From an uncultured cyanobacterium (lineage in GTDB: Bacteria; Cyanobacteriota; Cyanobacteriia; PCC-6307; Cyanobiaceae): a DNA stretch of 34,627 bases. Position numbers and translations under genes: made by a program. Under the pieces are notes generated by a model. That model was not told the DNA's origin and searched no databases. It was given only the letters and a program-made list of their open reading frames with translations. The stretch is from the NCBI GenBank assembly GCA_903858015.1, contig CAIOGZ010000079.1:1-34627 (forward strand), written 5' to 3'. Positions 2,997-15,836 of the stretch are shown piece after piece. Each line of letters starts with the position of its first letter. The stretch's first letter is position 1.

Positions 2997-3859
2997 ATAA
3001 AGAACTTATTCAGAAGATGCAGAGCCAGTTTGATGCGCTTGCCCGCAAGGAGCCAGGCGGCGATGCGGTGGAGTTTTGGTTCGCCAGAGACCTACAGGCT
3101 CCCTTGGGCTACGCCCGGTGGGAAAACTTTATGACTGCCATCAAGCGAGCAATCGAGTCGTGCCGAACAACCGACTTTGACCCGGAACACCATTTTCGTG
3201 GCGTCACGAAAATGGTTGCGATCGGCAGCGGCGCAGAACGAACGATCGATGATTTCATGCTCACGCGCTATGCCTGCTATCTGATTGCTCAGAATGGTGA
3301 TCCACGCAAAGAGCCGATCGCCTTTGCTCAGAGCTACTTTGCCGTGCAGACGCGCAAACAAGAGCTGATTGAAGAGCGGATGAACTTGATCCGCCGGCTG
3401 GAAGCTCGGGAGAAACTGCGGGCCTCTGAGAAGGCGCTTTCTGACAATATCTATGAGCGCGGTGTGGATGACGCTGGTTTTGGACGGATCCGCTCCAAGG
3501 GCGATGCCGCGCTATTTGGCGGACACACAACAAAAGCGATGAAGGATAAATACGGCATCACCCAGACTCGACCGCTGGCCGATTTTCTCCCCACCTTAAC
3601 CATTGCTGCCAAGAATCTGGCAACGGAAATGACCAACCATAACGTGCAGCAAGCCGACCTTCATGGCGAATCCGCCATCACCAACGAACACGTTCAGAAC
3701 AACACCAGTGTCCGCCAGATGTTGGATGATCGCGGCATCAAGCCGGAAGCTTTACCGGCAGAAGAGGATATCAAGAAGCTGGAACGCCGCGTCAAAACCG
3801 ATGAGAAAAAGCTGGGCAAGAAATCTGGCCGTCTTCCAGATTTGGGAAGTGAACCATGA
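2993..3859 (+). CDS. dinD: DinD-like DNA damage-inducible protein (BRO-N domain)
   Basis: A 288-residue protein strongly resembling E. coli DinD. Matching landmarks include VKIGSNAKR-like MVAIGSGAERT, the LTRYACYLIAQNGDPRKEP segment, SYFAVQTRKQEL, and the FGGHTTKAMKDKYGI region. The N-terminal 110 residues form a BRO-N-type domain and the C-terminal end is basic and charged (KKLERRVKTDEKK). Known DinD is SOS-induced and antagonises RecA filaments in vitro. Here it lies inside the restriction operon, starting with a GTG that overlaps the mod stop and ending in an ATGA overlap with res. Its likely role is to adjust the DNA-damage response during restriction; that is inference. No SOS box was identified directly upstream. 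Confidence 0.88.
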   Translation: MNKELIQKMQSQFDALARKEPGGDAVEFWFARDLQAPLGYARWENFMTAIKRAIESCRTTDFDPEHHFRGVTKMVAIGSGAERTIDDFMLTRYACYLIAQNGDPRKEPIAFAQSYFAVQTRKQELIEERMNLIRRLEAREKLRASEKALSDNIYERGVDDAGFGRIRSKGDAALFGGHTTKAMKDKYGITQTRPLADFLPTLTIAAKNLATEMTNHNVQQADLHGESAITNEHVQNNTSVRQMLDDRGIKPEALPAEEDIKKLERRVKTDEKKLGKKSGRLPDLGSEP

Positions 3860-5695
3860 AACTTCACTGTGAACCCAACCTCGATTATCAGCTTCAGGCG
3901 ATCGAAGCAGTCTGCGACCTTTTCCATGGGCAAGAAACTTGCCGGACAGAATTCACAGTCCTAAAAGAATCCGCCAGTGGTCAACTTTCTTTACTAGAGA
4001 ACGACCTTGGCATTGGCAACCGGCTCACCCTGCTCGATGACCAGCTACTTGAAAACCTGCATGCCATCCAGCTGCGCCACGGCTTGGCACCCTCGTCTTC
4101 GCTCGCATCCTTTGACTTCACTGTGGAGATGGAAACCGGCACTGGCAAAACCTATGTGTATCTGCGCACCATTTTCGAGCTAAACAAACGCTATGGCTTC
4201 ACCAAGTTTGTGATCGTAGTGCCCTCAGTGGCCATCAAGGAAGGTGTCTTTCACACCATCGAGACTGCAGCCGAACACCTCAAAGGGCTGTACGCAGGCA
4301 CCCCCTTCGACGCCTTCATCTATGACTCTGCCAAACTGGGCCAGGTGCGCAACTTCGCCACCAGCCCCCAGATTCAGATCATGGTGATGACGGTGGGCGC
4401 CATCAACAAATTCGGCGATGAGCAGCAAGCACAGACAGAGGAAGCAGACGAAATCGCTCGACGGGAGAAATCGAAGAATGTGATGTATCGCCCCAGCGAA
4501 AAAACCGGCGGCGAGAAGCCCATTGACTTGATCAGAGCAACGTGCCCCATCCTGATTGTTGACGAGCCTCAAAGCGTGGAAGGCGGGCTGGATGGCAAGG
4601 GCAAGAAGGCCATGGAGCGCATGAAGCCACTCTGCAACCTGCGCTACTCCGCCACACCGAAGCAGGCCCATCACATGGTCTACAAGCTTGACGCGGTAGA
4701 CGCCTACGAGCGCAAGCTCGTGAAGCAGATCGAAGTGGCGGCAGCCTCGGTGGAAGGTGGTTTTAACAAGCCGTTTGTACGGCTGCTATCCGTGAGCAAC
4801 AAAGGTGGCATTCGCGCCAAGGTGGAGCTGGACATACAGGTAGGTTCCGGTGTCGCACGCCGTGAAGTCAGCGTAGAAGACGGAGATCTTCTGGAAATGA
4901 CAACCCAAAGGGCCGTGTACCGCGATTTCAGAATCGGTGAAATTCGCGGAGCCAAGGGCACAGAGTTTCTTGAGCTTTGCTATCCCGGTGGTGAGTCATT
5001 TCTACATATTGGTGAGGCCTATGGAGATGTCGAGCCGCTCGCAATCCAGCGCCAGATGATCAAGCGAACCATCAAGGAACATCTGGACAAGGAGAAGCGC
5101 CTGCGCCCCCAAGGCATCAAGGTGCTCAGCCTGTTCTTCATCGATGCTGTGGAGAAGTATCGGCAATACGACGCCGAGGGCAACAAAGCGAATGGCGACT
5201 ATGCCCGCATCTTTGAAGAGGAATACCGTCGTCTAGCCATCCATCCTGACTACCAGACCCTCTTCCAGGAAGTAGACCTCACAAGTGCGGCCGCAAATGT
5301 TCACGAAGGTTACTTTGCCATCGACAAAAAGAAGGTGGGTGGCAAGACTGTGGAGATATTCAAAGATTCCAAGGGTGAAGGAACCACCAAGGCTGACGAC
5401 GACACCTACAACTTGATCATGCGTGACAAAGAGAAGCTCCTCAGCCTTGATACGCCGTTGAAATTCATCTTTTCCCATTCCGCGCTCCGCGAGGGCTGGG
5501 ACAATCCGAACGTCTTCCAGATCTGCGCCCTGCGGGAGATGACCTCCGAGCAGCAGCGCCGTCAGACCATCGGCCGTGGCCTGCGCCTCTGCGTGAATCA
5601 ACAGGGTGAACGCTTACGCGGGTTCGAAACCAATACGCTCACCGTGATCGCCACCGAGAGCTACGAGCAGTTCGCAGAAAACCTCCAAAAGGAAA
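3856..5695 (+). pseudogene. res: Type III-like restriction subunit Res, 5' part, cut by an IS element
   Basis: This is the helicase half of a type III-like Res subunit. It carries Walker A GTGKT at residues 95-99, a DEPQ box at 236-239 in place of DEAH, SATP at 265-268, and a motif VI-like stretch QQRRQTIGRGLRL near the end. After ENLQKE the frame runs into the IS1595 element and stops at 5700 after one foreign codon. Joining the target-site duplicates restores LQKEIEADTG, which proves continuity with the 3' part at 6729. It starts at ATG 3856, overlapping the dinD stop. The intact protein would be about 1010 residues; this fragment lacks the nuclease domain. Confidence 0.9.
5688..5695. repeat. 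Left target-site duplication of IS1595-type element
   Basis: The 8-bp AAAGGAAA sits directly left of the element and is repeated exactly at 6729-6736. Eight-bp duplications are characteristic of the IS1595 family. Confidence 0.93.
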
Positions 5696-5717
5696 CTTGA
5701 TTAGGTAGCTAGCTCCG
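5696..5717 (+). repeat. Left terminal inverted repeat
   Basis: This 22-bp end matches the reverse complement of 6707-6728 with two mismatches. The transposase stop codon (TAA on the minus strand, 5701-5703) lies within it. Confidence 0.92.
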
Positions 5718-6663
5718 CACTCCTCAAGATGCGTTCCGGCCGAGCGCCGCAGCTGCAGATGGCATGAACCACTCGCTCAGTCATTGTTGACAAGTTGAAG
5801 CGTCGGTTGAAGCGGTAATTGAAGGCACCCAGGTAGCGATCAGCGTACTTATCGAATTTCAGGGCATGGAAGGTGCCGCTGAAGCTTGTTTTCAAGTTGC
5901 TGAGGACCGTGTTGATCCAGCGGAATACCGGCAGTTCATTGGGATGGCGTCCTTTCACGACCACAGCTTGATGCAGGCAACCGACTTCTGTCACGGCGCG
6001 AAAGCAGGCCAGCCCATCCGAGATCACTTCACATCCTATTGCCAGTGAATCCTGTGCCCAGTCAGCGATGGCAGCAAAGGAGAACGTGGCCACGGTGGCA
6101 AGCTTCACGTAACGAGGGTGGCCCGCATCATCGACAGATACGGCCGCCACGATCGGCACCTTGTTCTCTGATCCACGACCAGGCTTACCACCACAGCGTT
6201 CTCCGCCAAGGTAGGCATCATCCACCTGTACCTTTCCCCGCAGGACATAAGCCCCATCCCGCTCCTTCATCGCCTGCATGATCTTGTTGTGAACCAGCCA
6301 TGCCGTGCGGTAGTTCACGCCCAGATGGCGCCTCAGAGCGAGTGAGGAGATGCCCGTCTTGGCCTGGCCCACCAGGTAGAAAGCGAGAAACCAGGTCGTT
6401 AGCGGCAACTTGGTCGCCTCCAGGATGGTTCCTGCCGTGAGGGTGGCCTGATGACGGCAGCTCCGGCATTGATAGCGCTTGTGGCGCCTGCCATGGATCA
6501 ACCCGTATTCCTTGCACTCACAGCGGGGGCAACGGAAACCATCAGGCCAGCGTGCCTGCTCCAGGGCGGCCTCACATTTCTCCTCGGTGCCGTAGAGCTC
6601 GATGAACCTAGGCAGCGACAGGCTTGCCTGAAACTGGATTCGATTCATGGCCATGGCAAACAC
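5701..6663 (-). CDS. IS1595-family transposase
   Basis: A 320-residue transposase. A zinc-ribbon near the N-terminus has CPRC and CRSC pairs about 25 residues apart. The catalytic core follows: the first Asp is in QVDDAYLGGE, the second in VISDGLACF, and the third position lies in the LSNLKTSFSGTFH stretch, where Asn/Lys replaces the classic Glu, as is common in the ISXO2-like branch of IS1595. The frame is intact. The ATG at 6663 is the furthest upstream; ATGs four and six codons in are also possible. It is the only gene of the element and is transcribed opposite to res. Confidence 0.95.
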   Translation of the reverse strand: MFAMAMNRIQFQASLSLPRFIELYGTEEKCEAALEQARWPDGFRCPRCECKEYGLIHGRRHKRYQCRSCRHQATLTAGTILEATKLPLTTWFLAFYLVGQAKTGISSLALRRHLGVNYRTAWLVHNKIMQAMKERDGAYVLRGKVQVDDAYLGGERCGGKPGRGSENKVPIVAAVSVDDAGHPRYVKLATVATFSFAAIADWAQDSLAIGCEVISDGLACFRAVTEVGCLHQAVVVKGRHPNELPVFRWINTVLSNLKTSFSGTFHALKFDKYADRYLGAFNYRFNRRFNLSTMTERVVHAICSCGARPERILRSAELAT

Positions 6664-6706
6664 AACTGGTACAGGCGTATCAGTTTAGGCAGGAACGGCC
6701 TGCTGA

Positions 6707-6728
6707 CGGAGCTTGCTGCCTAATCAAG
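6707..6728 (-). repeat. Right terminal inverted repeat
   Basis: This is the partner of 5696-5717 and reads CTTGATTAGG inwards on the minus strand. It is followed immediately by the second AAAGGAAA copy. Confidence 0.92.
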
Positions 6729-6736
6729 AAAGGAAA
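6729..6736. repeat. Right target-site duplication of IS1595-type element
   Basis: AAAGGAAA, identical to 5688-5695. Removing one copy plus the element restores the res frame across the junction. Confidence 0.93.
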
Positions 6737-7931
6737 TCGAAGCCGATACAGGCATCCGCTTCGGCATTGTTGAAGCCCACCAGTTCGCTGGTCTCACCAC
6801 CATCGGAGCGATGGCCAACCCGCACCGCTGGGGATTGAGCAGTCGAAGCTGCTCTGGGAATATCTAAAGACTGAAAAGTATCTCAACGCCCAAGGCAAGG
6901 TGCAAGACGCACTGCGGTCAGCGCTCAAGCACGGCACATTGACCCTGCCGGAGCCGTTCACATCCCAGCTCCCCCTGGTGAAGGAGATCCTGCGCAAGCT
7001 CGCCGGCCGACTGGAGATCAAAGATGCAGACCAACGCAGGCCAGTAAAGACTCGCCAAGCTGTTCTTTACGGCGCAGACTTCAAAGCCCTCTGGGATCGC
7101 ATCAAGCACAAGACCACCTACCGGGTGCAGTTCGACAACGAGGCCCTGCTGACCAACTGCATCAAGGCGCTGGCAGAAGCACCAGCCGTCGCCAAAACCC
7201 GCCTGCAATGGCGCAAGGCCGACATCGCCATCGGCCGCTCAGGTGTGGACGCGACGGAGAAGTCCGCCGCCGCACCCGTGACCCTCGACGAGAGCGACAT
7301 CGAACTGCCCGACATCCTGACCGATCTTCAGGACAAGACCTCGCTCACACGTCGCAGCATTTACCGAATCCTTGTAGATAGCAAGCGGCTTGATGATTTC
7401 AAGCGCAACCCGCAGCAGTTCATCGAACTGGCCGCTGAGATCATCAATCGAACCAAGCGAATGGCACTGGTGGATGGCATCAAGTACCAGCGCATCGGAG
7501 ATGATGCCTACTACGCCCAGCAGTTGTTCGAGAGCCAGGAGCTATCGGGTTATCTCAAGTCAATGATTGATGCCAACAAATCCGTCCATGAGCAGGTTAT
7601 TTACCAATCGGACACCGAACGAACGTTTGCCGAAGATCTCGAAAAAAACGAGGCGATCAAGGTCTACGCCAAACTCCCCGCCTGGTTCAAGGTTCCTACC
7701 CCCCTAGGCCCATACAATCCAGATTGGGCCGTCCTGGTTGATAAGCCTGAGGGGGAGCGGCTGTATCTCGTAGTGGAAACGAAGAGCAATTTATTCACCG
7801 ATGACTTGCGCGACAAGGAAAGTGCCAAGATCAGTTGCGGTGAAGCACATTTCCAGGCTCTTGCAGTCGGCGCAAATCCTGCTCACTACATGGTGGCCAG
7901 GAATGTAGCCGATGTCTTGTCCGACCTTTGA
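6729..7931 (+). pseudogene. res: Type III-like restriction subunit Res, 3' part with frameshift
   Basis: This continues res after the IS. The first 27 or so codons read KEIEADTGIRFGIVEAHQF in the original frame. One base is then missing after 6809: GGA-GC-GAT should be GGA-GCN-GAT. The correct sequence (DGQPAPLGIEQSKLLW, then GKVQDALRSALKHG) resumes one frame over and runs to the stop at 7931. The original frame instead ends at a TAA in the codons near 6867. The C-terminal PD-(D/E)xK nuclease is visible as NPDWAVLV near 7717 and VVETKS near 7773. A GTG at 6900 could start a 343-residue stand-alone nuclease fragment, but nothing shows that it is made. Confidence 0.88.
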
Positions 7932-8105: not shown

Positions 8106-8666
8106 ATGGCGCCCCTGCCGCCCCCCGAGCCCGCGCGACAGCTCGAAACCACGGCCAGCCTCGATGCCGGCAAGTTGCGCTTTGAGCTCAACCGGATGGT
8201 GCTGCCGATCGGGCTGGAGGCCAGCTTCGGGGTGATCCGCCACCCCGGCGCCTCCCTGGCGGTGCCCGTGCTCGACGACGGCCGCGTGGTGATCCTGCGC
8301 CAGTACCGCTTTGCGGTGGCCGCCCGGCTGCTGGAGTTTCCAGCCGGCACCCTCGATCCCGGCGAAGCGCCCCTGGCCACGATGGAGCGGGAGCTGCAGG
8401 AGGAGGCCGGCTACCGCGCCAGCCGCTGGGATCCGCTTGGCACCATGCTGCCCTGCCCCGGCTACTCCGATGAGGTGATCCACCTCTTCCTCGCCCGCGA
8501 CCTCACCCGCCTGGAGAGCCCCCCCGCCGGCGACGACGACGAAGACCTGGAGGTGCTGCTGCTGGAGCCGGCCGAGCTGGATCGCTCGATCGCCAGCGGC
8601 GATGACTACCTCGATGGCAAAAGCGTGACCGCCTGGTTCCGCGCCCGCCAGCTGCTGGGGCTGTGA
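8106..8666 (+). CDS. NUDIX hydrolase, ADP-ribose pyrophosphatase-like
   Basis: The NUDIX box is complete: G-x5-E-x7-REL-x-EE-x-GY, read as GTLDPGE followed by RELQEEAGY, in a protein of 186 residues. The upstream GQYRF-like stretch (ILRQYRFAVAARLLEFPAG) is typical of the ADP-sugar pyrophosphatase branch, which hydrolyses ADP-ribose and related nucleotide sugars. The ATG at 8106 is preferred. An upstream in-frame start at 8031 would add a proline-rich stretch unlike the family. The gene overlaps the GTG start of the photolyase gene by four bases, so the two are probably co-translated. The exact substrate cannot be read from the sequence. Confidence 0.88.
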   Translation: MAPLPPPEPARQLETTASLDAGKLRFELNRMVLPIGLEASFGVIRHPGASLAVPVLDDGRVVILRQYRFAVAARLLEFPAGTLDPGEAPLATMERELQEEAGYRASRWDPLGTMLPCPGYSDEVIHLFLARDLTRLESPPAGDDDEDLEVLLLEPAELDRSIASGDDYLDGKSVTAWFRARQLLGL

Positions 8667-10189
8667 GCGCGCCCCGCTGGCTGTTCTGGCACCGCCGCGA
8701 CCTGCGCCTGGCCGACAACCTCGGCCTGGCCGCCGCCGCTGCAGCCACCGCCGCCCTCAGCGGCGTGGTGGTGCTCGATCCAGCCGAACTGGCCGCCCCA
8801 GACCAGGCCCCGGCCCGGCTCTGGTTCCTGGCCGAGAGCCTGCGGGAGCTGGCGGCCCGCTGGCAGGCCGCCGGCAGCCGCCTGCTGGTGCTGCAGGGCG
8901 ATCCAGGCGAGCTGCTGCCCCGCCTGGCGGCCGCCACGGGGGCGGCGGTGGTGGCCTGGAACAGGGGTGTGGAGCCCGCCGAGCGCGAGCGCGACCGGCG
9001 GGTGGCGGCGGCCCTGCAGGGCGATGGCGTCAAGGTGCTGGTCGATTGGGACCAACTGCTGGTGCCCCCCGAAACGATCCTCACCGGCGGCGGCGCGCCC
9101 TACCGGGTGTACGGCCCCTACCTGCGCAACTGGCGCGGCCAGGTGGAGCGGCGCGCCATCGCCGGCGAGCTGGATCTGCGGCCGGCGCCCCGGGACCTGC
9201 TCGACCTCGATCCAGCCGCCCTGCCGCGGCCCGAGCTCTGGGCAGCCCTGCCGCGGCTGGAACCGCTGCCGGCGGCGGCCCAGCTGGCGGCCATCGCCAG
9301 CGGCAGCGGCCCGCTCCAACCCGCCAGCGGCGATGGTCGCCTGCTCCAACCGTTCAGCGGCGCCGAGCTCTGCCCCTGCCGCCCCGGCGAGGCCGCAGCC
9401 CTGGCCCAGCTCGATGCCTTCGCCGATGGCGGCGCCCTGGCCAGCTACGAAGAGGGCCGCAACCTGCCGGCTGAGGCCGGCACCTCAGCCCTTTCGGCCG
9501 CCCTGCGCTTTGGCACCTTGAGCCCGCGCCAGGCCTGGGCCGCCGCCGCCGTGGCCCGCTACGCCGCCCGCAGCGATGAGACCCTGGCCTCGATCAGCGT
9601 CTGGGAGCAGGAGCTGGCCTGGCGCGAGTTCTACCAGCAGGCCCTGCTCCACTTCCCCGAACTCGCCGCGGGCCCCTACCGGCCCCAGTGGCGCCACTTC
9701 CCCTGGGAGAACGACCCAACCCGGCTCGACGCCTGGAAGGCGGGCCTCACCGGCATGCCGATCGTGGATGCGGCGATGCGCCAACTGGTGGGGAGCGGCT
9801 GGATGCACAACCGCTGCCGCATGATCGTGGCCTCCTATCTGGTGAAGGATCTGATCTGTGATTGGCGCCTGGGCGAGCGCTTCTTCATGGAGCATCTGGT
9901 CGATGGCGACCTCGCCGCCAACAACGGCGGCTGGCAGTGGAGCGCTAGCAGTGGCATGGACCCCAAACCGCTGCGCATCTTCAACCCCGCCACCCAAGCC
10001 GGCAAGTTCGATGCCGAAGCGGCCTACATCCGCACCTGGCTGCCGGAGCTGGCCCACGTGGCCACGCCCGATTTGATCAGCGGCCAGATCGCCCCCCTGG
10101 AGCGGCGCGGCTACCCAGCCCCGATCGTGGACCACAAGCAGCAGCAGGCCCGCTTCAAGGCGCTCTATGCCAACCTGCCCAGGGGATAG
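8663..10189 (+). CDS. phrA: Deoxyribodipyrimidine photolyase (CPD photolyase)
   Basis: A 508-residue class I photolyase that repairs cyclobutane pyrimidine dimers using light. The N-terminal Rossmann antenna domain begins LFWHRRDLRLADN. The C-terminal FAD domain carries the WREFYQ stretch, GMPIVDAAMRQL, GWMHNRCRMIVASYL and DGDLAANNGGWQW. Length and domain order are normal. The start is a GTG at 8663 inside the overlap with the NUDIX gene. It ends at TAG 10187-10189 and converges with the aminotransferase gene. A second photolyase relative lies at 14359-15717 with a different architecture. Confidence 0.95.
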   Translation: MSAPRWLFWHRRDLRLADNLGLAAAAAATAALSGVVVLDPAELAAPDQAPARLWFLAESLRELAARWQAAGSRLLVLQGDPGELLPRLAAATGAAVVAWNRGVEPAERERDRRVAAALQGDGVKVLVDWDQLLVPPETILTGGGAPYRVYGPYLRNWRGQVERRAIAGELDLRPAPRDLLDLDPAALPRPELWAALPRLEPLPAAAQLAAIASGSGPLQPASGDGRLLQPFSGAELCPCRPGEAAALAQLDAFADGGALASYEEGRNLPAEAGTSALSAALRFGTLSPRQAWAAAAVARYAARSDETLASISVWEQELAWREFYQQALLHFPELAAGPYRPQWRHFPWENDPTRLDAWKAGLTGMPIVDAAMRQLVGSGWMHNRCRMIVASYLVKDLICDWRLGERFFMEHLVDGDLAANNGGWQWSASSGMDPKPLRIFNPATQAGKFDAEAAYIRTWLPELAHVATPDLISGQIAPLERRGYPAPIVDHKQQQARFKALYANLPRG

Positions 10190-14358: not shown

Positions 14359-15717
14359 CTACCCCCACACCAGCGGCTCGGCGCGGCGCCAATAACGCGA
14401 GAAGCGGCGCAGGTCCGGCGCGGCATCGCCCTCGAAGGGAAGGGCCACAAAGGGCTCGGGCTCCAGCATCTGCAACGGCAGCACCGCCGCCACCCTGGCC
14501 GCGCTGCGGAGCAGGCGGGGATCCACCGGCCGGCTGGTCACGAGGCCATCGCAGCCGTGATCCACGGCCGCCGCCAGCAGCTCGGTGGCCACATCCCCCT
14601 CGCGCACCGGCACCGGCAGCTCGGCTAGACAGGCGCGCAGAAAGCGGATCCGACCGGAGGCCGGGGGCAATTCCCCCACCAGGCACGCCGGGCTCCCAGC
14701 CCCCTGGCCAGCGCCAGCGTGACCAGCGATCCAGTCGGCGTCGAGCACGGCCAGGGCCGGGGCATCGGGGTGGGCCAGGAGAGCGGGGTTCGCCGGACCC
14801 AGAGCCTCCCCATGCACCCACACCAGAGGCCGGCGCAACGGGGCAACCAGGTTGGCCGGCGGCGGCGGTTGCAGGTCAGGCGCAGGGATCTCCGCCTGCG
14901 GAGCGAAGGCAAGGAACAGCCGCGCCTGCAGCTGCTCGTAGCTCGCCTCAAACGGACACCCCGCCGCGCCGCCGCGGCCAGCCCGGGGGCAATCGCCGCA
15001 GAAGCGGCCGCCACTGAAGCGCTCCAGGTTGGCGCGGTTGAAGATGTAGGGCTTGGGGCTAAAGCTGCTGGCCACCCACTGCCAGCTGAGGTTGTTGCTA
15101 GCCGGATCACCGTCGAGTAGGTGCTGTAGAAACCAGCGGGCGCCGGCCTGCCAGCGAACCCGCCGCCAGTGCACCACGTAGGCGGCCAGCCACATCCGCG
15201 CGTGGTTGTGCAGCCAACCCGTGGCCATCAGTTCGGCGGCAAAGGCATCGATGCAGGGCAGGCCGGTGCTGGCGGCGGCGATGTCAGCCGGAAGCGCGGC
15301 GGCGTAGGCATCGGGCCGATGGCCGGTCTTCAGCGGCTCCCTGTCGTGCCAGATGCCATCACCCAGTTGGCGCCAGAGGCGTTGCCAGTAGTCGCGCCAG
15401 CCCAGCTCGCTGATCAGTTTCTCGCCGGCACGGCGCTGGGCAGGGCTCCAGGAGCGGCCGCCACGGGAGCCACAGCCGGCAGTGGATGCGAACAGGTCGG
15501 CCTGCACCACCCCAGCGGGCTCGGCGAGCGCCTCCAGCCGTGCGAACACCGCCTGTCGCACCTCCGCCAGCGTCAGCACGCCATGGCGAATCCAGGGTGA
15601 GAGGCGCGTCACGGCGCCACTGAGATGGTTGCGGCTGGCGCCATAGCGGGCGGGATCGATCGCGGCCAGGCGCTCCTCAGCTGCCCGGCGGCCACCGCGG
15701 AAGATGGGCAGTGGCAT
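14359..15717 (-). CDS. Photolyase/cryptochrome-family flavoprotein with swapped domain order
   Basis: A 452-residue protein whose first 280 residues match the FAD-binding half of photolyases: LSPWIRHGVL (39-48), ELGWRDYW (104-111), GWLHNHARMWLAAYVVHW (167-184) and LLDGDPASNNLSWQW (200-214). A CGDCP...C cluster follows (240-254). After a proline-rich linker, residues 297-428 resemble the N-terminal alpha/beta antenna domain: a PLVWVHGEALG strand, ALAVLDADW, RIRFLRACLAEL, then DGLVTSRPVDP. In normal photolyases this domain comes first. The start ATG at 15717 is chosen to begin with MPLPIF; an upstream start at 15813 lacks similarity. It is divergent from fabI (119 bp). Its photochemical role is unknown. 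Confidence 0.82.
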   Translation of the reverse strand: MPLPIFRGGRRAAEERLAAIDPARYGASRNHLSGAVTRLSPWIRHGVLTLAEVRQAVFARLEALAEPAGVVQADLFASTAGCGSRGGRSWSPAQRRAGEKLISELGWRDYWQRLWRQLGDGIWHDREPLKTGHRPDAYAAALPADIAAASTGLPCIDAFAAELMATGWLHNHARMWLAAYVVHWRRVRWQAGARWFLQHLLDGDPASNNLSWQWVASSFSPKPYIFNRANLERFSGGRFCGDCPRAGRGGAAGCPFEASYEQLQARLFLAFAPQAEIPAPDLQPPPPANLVAPLRRPLVWVHGEALGPANPALLAHPDAPALAVLDADWIAGHAGAGQGAGSPACLVGELPPASGRIRFLRACLAELPVPVREGDVATELLAAAVDHGCDGLVTSRPVDPRLLRSAARVAAVLPLQMLEPEPFVALPFEGDAAPDLRRFSRYWRRAEPLVWG

Positions 15718-15836
15718 CAAGGGCGGGCGACGCCACTGGACGCTAGGAGGCTGCTGCCGGAGCGCTGCGGCTCGCCGCCGGCCGCTGGGGGAGAATCCCC
15801 AATCGCACCCCAACGCCGCCGGCAGCGCGCCTCCCC

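Follow-up and report, generated by a model that had tools for sequence, protein, structure and literature searches.

A photolyase whose two domains stand in reversed order was described in marine and brackish picocyanobacteria by Haney et al. (2022, mBio, PMC9426592), where it is encoded by adjacent open reading frames (ORFs), phr4 and phr5, and, in two Cyanobium strains, by a single ORF, phr6; a gene pair of Nostoc punctiforme is mentioned in the same work and four conserved cysteines are reported. Disruption of phr4 in strain RS9916 reduced UV-C survival 20-30 fold, and phr4/phr5 protected E. coli from UV-C. The phylogeny given there sets the flavin adenine dinucleotide (FAD) domain beside Phr7, and the authors propose (6-4) activity and raise a +1 frameshift, a seven-base-pair frameshift being described for marine strains (PMC9426592). 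Among the open-licence literature matches listed, no other description of the reversed order was found.

The gene analysed here lies at 14359-15717, on the minus strand, of a 34,627-nucleotide stretch (the window) of contig CAIOGZ010000079.1 from an uncultured cyanobacterium of the Cyanobiaceae (assembly GCA_903858015.1). It is a Phr6, and its reversed order was already published in 2022. Both Phr6 and Phr4/Phr5 place the FAD half first and the antenna second, as does the window gene, and Phr6 shares with it, in addition, the single ORF joining an N-terminal FAD domain to a C-terminal alpha/beta domain, the four cysteines and a position a few genes from a phr3-like photolyase. Other phyla and unlinked gene pairs, both taken up below, are absent from the work of Haney et al. 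as covered here.

Domain order and folds of the two halves

On translation the ORF gave 452 codons plus a stop, starting from an ATG at 15717, and its open frame could begin further upstream, at a TTG at 15813. The original prediction held that a FAD-binding half comes first and a photolyase-like antenna last, the reverse of the ordinary order in the photolyase gene at 8663-10189, and this was borne out on both sides, the halves lying at residues 1-275 and 296-452 of the window protein and PF00875 preceding PF03441 in the ordinary one. Residues 102-224 match Pfam FAD_binding_7 with E 1.4e-23 (profile positions 2-126 of 203), and residues 1-276 were placed on photolyase FAD domains with VIA Z scores of up to 17.8. 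An AlphaFold model of the whole protein was made from 92 rows, comprising the window protein, 33 fused relatives and the FAD and antenna halves of 29 of 47 split loci, and had a mean pLDDT (predicted local distance difference test) of 91.1 and a pTM (predicted template modelling score) of 0.90, by which the modelled placement of the domains in the fused chain is confident; pLDDT in the linker was 79 in block 271-280 and 73 in block 281-290.

The antenna half was not recognised when the window sequence was searched against Pfam, NCBIfam and PDB, and has no Pfam match of its own to either PF00875 or Usp; a PDB profile search gave weak matches, the best being a cryptochrome (E 0.0056). Residues 284-452, folded alone from 36 rows, formed an alpha/beta domain (pLDDT 84.7). 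The first 16 VIA rows for this isolated domain were all N-terminal domains of photolyases or cryptochromes, with Z from 11.7 (over 130 residues) to 10.0, while the first row outside the photolyase family, 1mjh (MJ0577), which we take to be a universal stress protein, had Z 9.9 and tied with the lower family rows. Foldseek gave a Thermus photolyase at E 1.7e-4 and a universal stress protein at E 6.5e-4. Fold prediction, fold comparison and profiles thus returned the photolyase antenna fold; the extent first proposed for this domain, 297-428, holds as to the fold and falls short at its end, which lies at about residue 452, the last helix (439-451) being part of the domain.

PF00875 was matched, with E values of no more than 1, by 32 of the 36 aligned C-terminal relatives (best 1.4e-5), and Usp by seven (best 2.1e-4). 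In profile-profile comparison the C-terminal domains were aligned with 13 ordinary photolyase N-terminal domains over 135 columns at a probability of 98.6% (E 1.2e-15), whereas five other window stretches used as single-sequence controls gave at most 0.32%, and a reversed decoy gave 0.32% when compared with that target and 3.1% when compared with the forward profile of which it is the reverse. Sequence profiles thus tell a photolyase antenna from a universal stress protein better than the fold does. When whole genomes were searched with the antenna profile, extra matches of about 20-37 bits were obtained, mostly in ORFs of 450-620 amino acids, and all seven low-scoring loci inspected carried an antenna part followed by a FAD domain in one ORF and were ordinary photolyases. 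We therefore consider it likely that the window gene encodes a Phr6-type photolyase with the FAD half and then the antenna half in a single chain.

Lesion type and the four cysteines

Across 173 distinct FAD domains, N171, H172, R174, N208, W189, W212 and W214 were invariant, residue 104 was Glu in 156 and Gln in 17, and residue 175 was Met in 147 and Leu in 26. E104, N171 and M175 align with the Glu, Asn and Met of the window's class I photolyase (PhrA), so that the class I lesion-site residues are present, and the roles of lesion-contact Glu, lesion-contact Met and N5-facing Asn are presumably those of E104, M175 and N208, respectively. The HNHxRM site also agrees, in alignment, with Prochlorococcus-type Phr7. 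The catalytic motif of (6-4) photolyases is given as His-His-X-X-Arg, and in the Drosophila enzyme His365Asn abolishes, and His369Met strongly reduces, (6-4) repair (PMC9852545, as covered here). The window protein has Asn and Met at the positions of these two histidines, and Asn in place of the first was found in 173/173 FAD domains, none of which thus has HHxxR. Since Asn and Met stand where (6-4) photolyases have two important histidines, a cyclobutane dimer is the most likely lesion, and judged from its residues the enzyme is probably a cyclobutane pyrimidine dimer (CPD) photolyase with a structural iron-sulphur (Fe-S) cluster.

The CxxC...C pattern pointed out between the halves in the original prediction was confirmed as C240xxC243x10C254 at the domain junction, and C155 was identified as a fourth conserved cysteine. 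All four occurred together in 164/173 FAD domains, as they do in Phr6 and in the FeS-BCP (6-4) photolyases, and their spacing is 85/3/11 in the window protein against 88/3/13 in the V. cholerae (6-4) photolyase. Eight loci of cyanobacterial family f24 (L136-L143), each a divergent FAD and antenna pair, have all four replaced (by S, P, P and D) and yet retain the HNxxR site, and the ninth locus lacking the full set, L126, is a broken gene. The joint loss of the cysteines in the eight loci fits a shared metal cluster, and the FAD half probably carries a four-cysteine Fe-S cluster.

The alternative that Haney et al. draw from the four cysteines, a (6-4) photolyase, has several observations in its favour, which weigh against the assignment to CPD repair. 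Besides the cysteines and their V. cholerae-like spacing, V. cholerae and Caulobacter (6-4) photolyases took the first four places in the VIA list of the FAD half (Z 17.8, 15.7, 15.6 and 15.5), and the RS9916 disruption that lowered UV-C survival left UV-B survival unchanged, from which its authors infer (6-4) repair (PMC9426592). CPD enzymes, however, stand in the same list (Thermus at Z about 15, Anacystis at about 14), and rows two to four, being within 1 Z of Thermus, are tied with it, so that only the first row is clear. Against a (6-4) enzyme, the published Drosophila Asn or Met mutants lose or largely lose activity (PMC9852545), the window's own genome has another photolyase, on contig C12, with HHxxR, and the eight relatives that dropped the four cysteines hold to HNxxR. 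We thus regard (6-4) repair as unlikely for this protein. The C12 gene (C12:111646-113055) is a PhrB-like ORF, apparently without the full Fe-S cysteine set.

In CPD repair by such an enzyme, the antenna domain would bind a pigment, absorb blue/UV-A light and pass the energy to reduced FAD, which would donate an electron to a flipped-out lesion and so split it. In the two-gene relatives the antenna would most likely be a separate subunit docking on the FAD subunit, as co-occurrence and fusion of the halves suggest. A further point on the opposing side is the pigment itself: the best cofG match in the window's 99.9% complete genome reached 24 bits against a cut-off of 213 (cofH was not sought), and 8-hydroxydeazaflavin (8-HDF) may thus not be available.

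Arrangement, spread and origin of the reversed order

Homologues were surveyed in the best 80 of 480 loci, ranked by the best single segment, a ranking that favours same-frame genes. The reversed form was fused in one frame in 33 of these and split in the linker in 47, where the antenna half has its own start. A sample of 291 genomes of the cyanobacterial class, evenly drawn, was then used to follow the halves separately. With cut-offs set after the score gap had been seen (over 80 bits for a strong antenna gene, E up to 1e-40 for a strong FAD gene), 65 genomes had the antenna gene and 64 the FAD gene; 64 had both, one (G074) had the antenna only and none the FAD half only, a co-occurrence for which kinship among the genomes inflates any significance test. 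As the rows of the antenna profile, some of them trimmed by eye, came from genes that adjoin FAD partners or are fused to them, unpaired antenna families may be missed. The halves adjoined, FAD first, in 45 of the 64 genomes, as neighbouring genes in 43 and fused in two, as judged by shared open-frame length; one of these two is the genome of the window and the other belongs to its genus. The co-occurrence is qualified by the other 19, in which they were non-adjacent: five pairs were on opposite strands of one contig, eight on the same strand (three within 2 kb and five at 0.25-1 Mb) and six on different contigs, where they might be neighbours in the real genome.

Beyond Cyanobacteria, the antenna profile was searched at a cut-off of E 1e-6, FAD partners being sought only in genomes with an antenna match. 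Matches were found in 17/251 genomes (15 strong) of the phylum of a Chloroflexi locus (L058), in 5/247 (four strong) of that of an Acidobacteriaceae locus (L076) and in 1/246 of that of a Planctomycetaceae locus (L078). The 15 strong genomes of the first phylum had a FAD partner of at least 294 bits in 13 cases, one broken over two ORFs of 204 and 81 bits in G904, and none in G856, while the four strong acidobacterial genomes and the planctomycete all had one of at least 300 bits. In three acidobacterial pairs the genes shared a contig at a distance of about 1 Mb or more, and in one pair of the first phylum they lay on different contigs. The fused form was also present in an Eremiobacterota metagenome-assembled genome (MAG; L077) and on three Deinococcus plasmids, a fourth carrying two genes that overlap by 4 nt. 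The plasmid search gave 145 records matching the window protein, of which three, all Deinococcus, cover at least 80% of it, and 10 of 50,697 phage records matched, none over 80% of the query.

Two observations were made alongside this survey. At L203, in a genome of the L058 phylum, an intact antenna gene is preceded by a FAD half that is itself broken into two ORFs, one overlapping the other. On the tree, the phr4/phr5 pair of L043, a MAG bearing the label Tatlockia (Legionellaceae), is placed among cyanobacteria, which would reflect mis-binning or transfer.

The original prediction had ascribed the domain order to circular permutation or gene rearrangement. A true permutant, in which an ancestral antenna-FAD gene was duplicated in tandem and then trimmed, would account for the same two domains in reverse order and for their confident predicted placement (pTM 0.90). 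However, most relatives carry the halves as two genes, as in the 47 loci split in the linker, the 19 cyanobacterial genomes with non-adjacent halves and the four genomes of other phyla with halves far apart or on other contigs, and thus fusion explains the reversed order more simply, taking fewer steps, although its direction on the tree is not proven. Two genes being the common state, permutation was rejected as the origin and is improbable. The order would instead have arisen when a phr4-like gene became fused to a phr5-like gene lying downstream of it. A quick tree of FAD domains (thinned from 195 to 154 rows, of which 147 belong to the family), in which long branches meet, required at least seven changes of the fused or split state, and at least 19 of the three-state arrangement, and cannot separate gain from loss of fusion.

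It was also weighed whether the two-gene relatives make one protein by programmed frameshift, as raised by Haney et al. Fused and split forms do interchange on the FAD tree, five split Cyanobium/Synechococcus genes being nested within a fused clade at moderate support. In contrast, 103 distinct adjacent junctions had the antenna ORF in the frame of the stop in 47 and in the other two frames in 38 and 18 (16/28/13 for the 57 outside the frame-biased best 80 loci), with spacings from -59 to +186 nt (median 5; 26 overlapping; the broken-gene locus L126, at +222 nt, excluded) and antenna starts, taken by rule as the last ATG before the conserved motif, of ATG in 97 and GTG in six. With all three frames and many spacings in use, frameshifting cannot be general, and the genes are besides non-adjacent in 19/64 genomes. 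In Synechococcus WH7803 (L036) both ORFs lie in one frame, separated by a TGA and 27 nt, a junction that could not be matched to the seven-base-pair frameshift described for marine strains. The junctions show the pattern of two neighbouring, often overlapping genes and not of one recoding site; a general programmed frameshift was rejected on their frames, spacings and starts, and is very improbable. A new function as a cryptochrome-like light sensor, of the kind the original prediction had allowed for and to which the partial span of the Pfam match to the FAD domain might point, is equally improbable, as the Asn at the FAD N5 position and the lesion-contact Glu, Asn and Met are kept and the marine two-gene orthologue, Phr4/Phr5, aids UV survival in vivo and in E. 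coli (PMC9426592).

Neighbourhood and relation to other photolyases

Positions of the features are collected in Table 1. Of the 26 phr4/phr6-bearing genomes among 81 of the family, 20 have a second photolyase-like match no more than 10 kb away on the opposite strand, its domain order being checked in the window and in one other genome (G201); phr4/phr6 and a second photolyase form a conserved photorepair neighbourhood. Elsewhere in the window, a type III restriction-modification system has its restriction subunit broken into two pieces over 3856-7931, with profile positions 1-585 at 3856-5700 and 641-983 at 6900-7931, and an IS1595-type transposase (5701-6663, minus strand) lies between the two parts.

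Table 1. Positions in the window of the reversed-order photolyase gene, its parts and the ordinary-order comparator
Feature	Positions	Strand	Basis
Whole gene, reversed-order phr6-type photolyase, 452 residues plus stop	14359..15717	-	Translation; organisation of relatives
FAD-binding catalytic half, residues 1-275	14893..15717	-	Pfam FAD_binding_7; fold match
Lesion-site motif HNHARM, residues 170-175 (CPD-type HN..RM, versus (6-4)-type HH..R)	15193..15210	-	173 relatives; (6-4) motif from PMC9852545, as covered here
N208, aligned with the photolyase Asn facing FAD N5	15094..15096	-	173/173; alignment with the window's ordinary photolyase
C155, putative first Fe-S ligand	15253..15255	-	C in 165/173, S in 8/173
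C240, putative second Fe-S ligand	14998..15000	-	C in 164/173, P in 8, gap in 1
C243, putative third Fe-S ligand	14989..14991	-	C in 164/173
C254, putative fourth Fe-S ligand	14956..14958	-	C in 164/173; spacing versus V. cholerae
Low-confidence linker, residues 276-295; zone where relatives split into two genes	14833..14892	-	pLDDT; split junctions
Antenna-type alpha/beta domain (Phr5-like), residues 296-452	14362..14832	-	Own model, fold search, PF00875, profile comparison
Ordinary-order class I photolyase (phr3-like), comparator	8663..10189	+	PF00875 at 7-162, then PF03441 at 314-503

Short photolyase-like (SPL) proteins are defined as being without an alpha/beta antenna domain (PMC9649867, as covered here), a definition that the window protein does not fit, since it has the antenna fold, at its C-terminus. 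Phr7-type proteins are reported to act on CPDs in single-stranded DNA (PMC9426592), and we infer that SPL and Phr7, each a FAD domain with a Z-domain, form one group. Its members have the FAD half N-terminal, as the window protein does, and differ from it in that the Phr5 profile recognises no antenna domain in them. Eight non-Deinococcus plasmid loci were examined and one (L269), having no ORF with the motif, was dropped; plasmid-borne SPL-like proteins carry HNHxRM in six of seven cases and HNWARM in the seventh, and Phr7 also has HNHxRM. A search of plasmids with the DNA of the Phr7 region found nothing. Z-domains compared with the Phr5 antenna by hhalign reached a probability of 68% in a set of five alphaproteobacterial members, 14% in one of ten mixed members and 0.2% with Prochlorococcus-type members alone; Z-domains combined with Persicobacter gave 11%, Persicobacter C-terminal domains 37% and other controls at most 2.4%. 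With ordinary N-terminal antenna domains as the target, the Z profiles stayed below 1%. The Z-domain thus resembles the Phr5 antenna only weakly, a likeness that is suggestive.

Taken jointly, these results lead us to put forward, tentatively and as a whole somewhat short of even odds, a two-part photolyase whose antenna would be separate and freely assorting and yet kept with its FAD partner, also where the two genes are distant from each other, across several phyla and on Deinococcus plasmids, which would repair CPDs despite Fe-S cysteines that others have read as marking (6-4) activity, and of whose antenna the Z-domain would be a decayed remnant. If so, 'short' photolyases would derive from two-domain enzymes and would not represent ancestors without an antenna, which bears on whether they are primitive or reduced. 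With a detachable antenna, addition of a second protein would turn energy transfer on, and such a system would reveal if (6-4) repair is what the Fe-S cluster stands for. What is new here is the detachable-antenna comparison, the wider range of phyla and the argument for CPD repair, the reversed order itself being known.

Compared with the other described classes, the window protein shares nearly the same four-cysteine spacing with the FeS-BCP enzymes (V. cholerae; A. tumefaciens PhrB), but these have an N-terminal, PhrB-like antenna and HHxxR, whereas its own antenna is C-terminal and its site HNxxR. With class I CPD photolyases, such as that at 8663-10189 and the Anacystis enzyme (1TEZ), it shares both folds and the Glu, Asn and Met of the lesion site, while in those enzymes the antenna comes first and the four aligned positions are not all cysteine. 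From Phr6, as far as the account of Haney et al. is covered here, the window gene shows no departure, and it is on the lesion type and on frameshifting that the present analysis differs from theirs.
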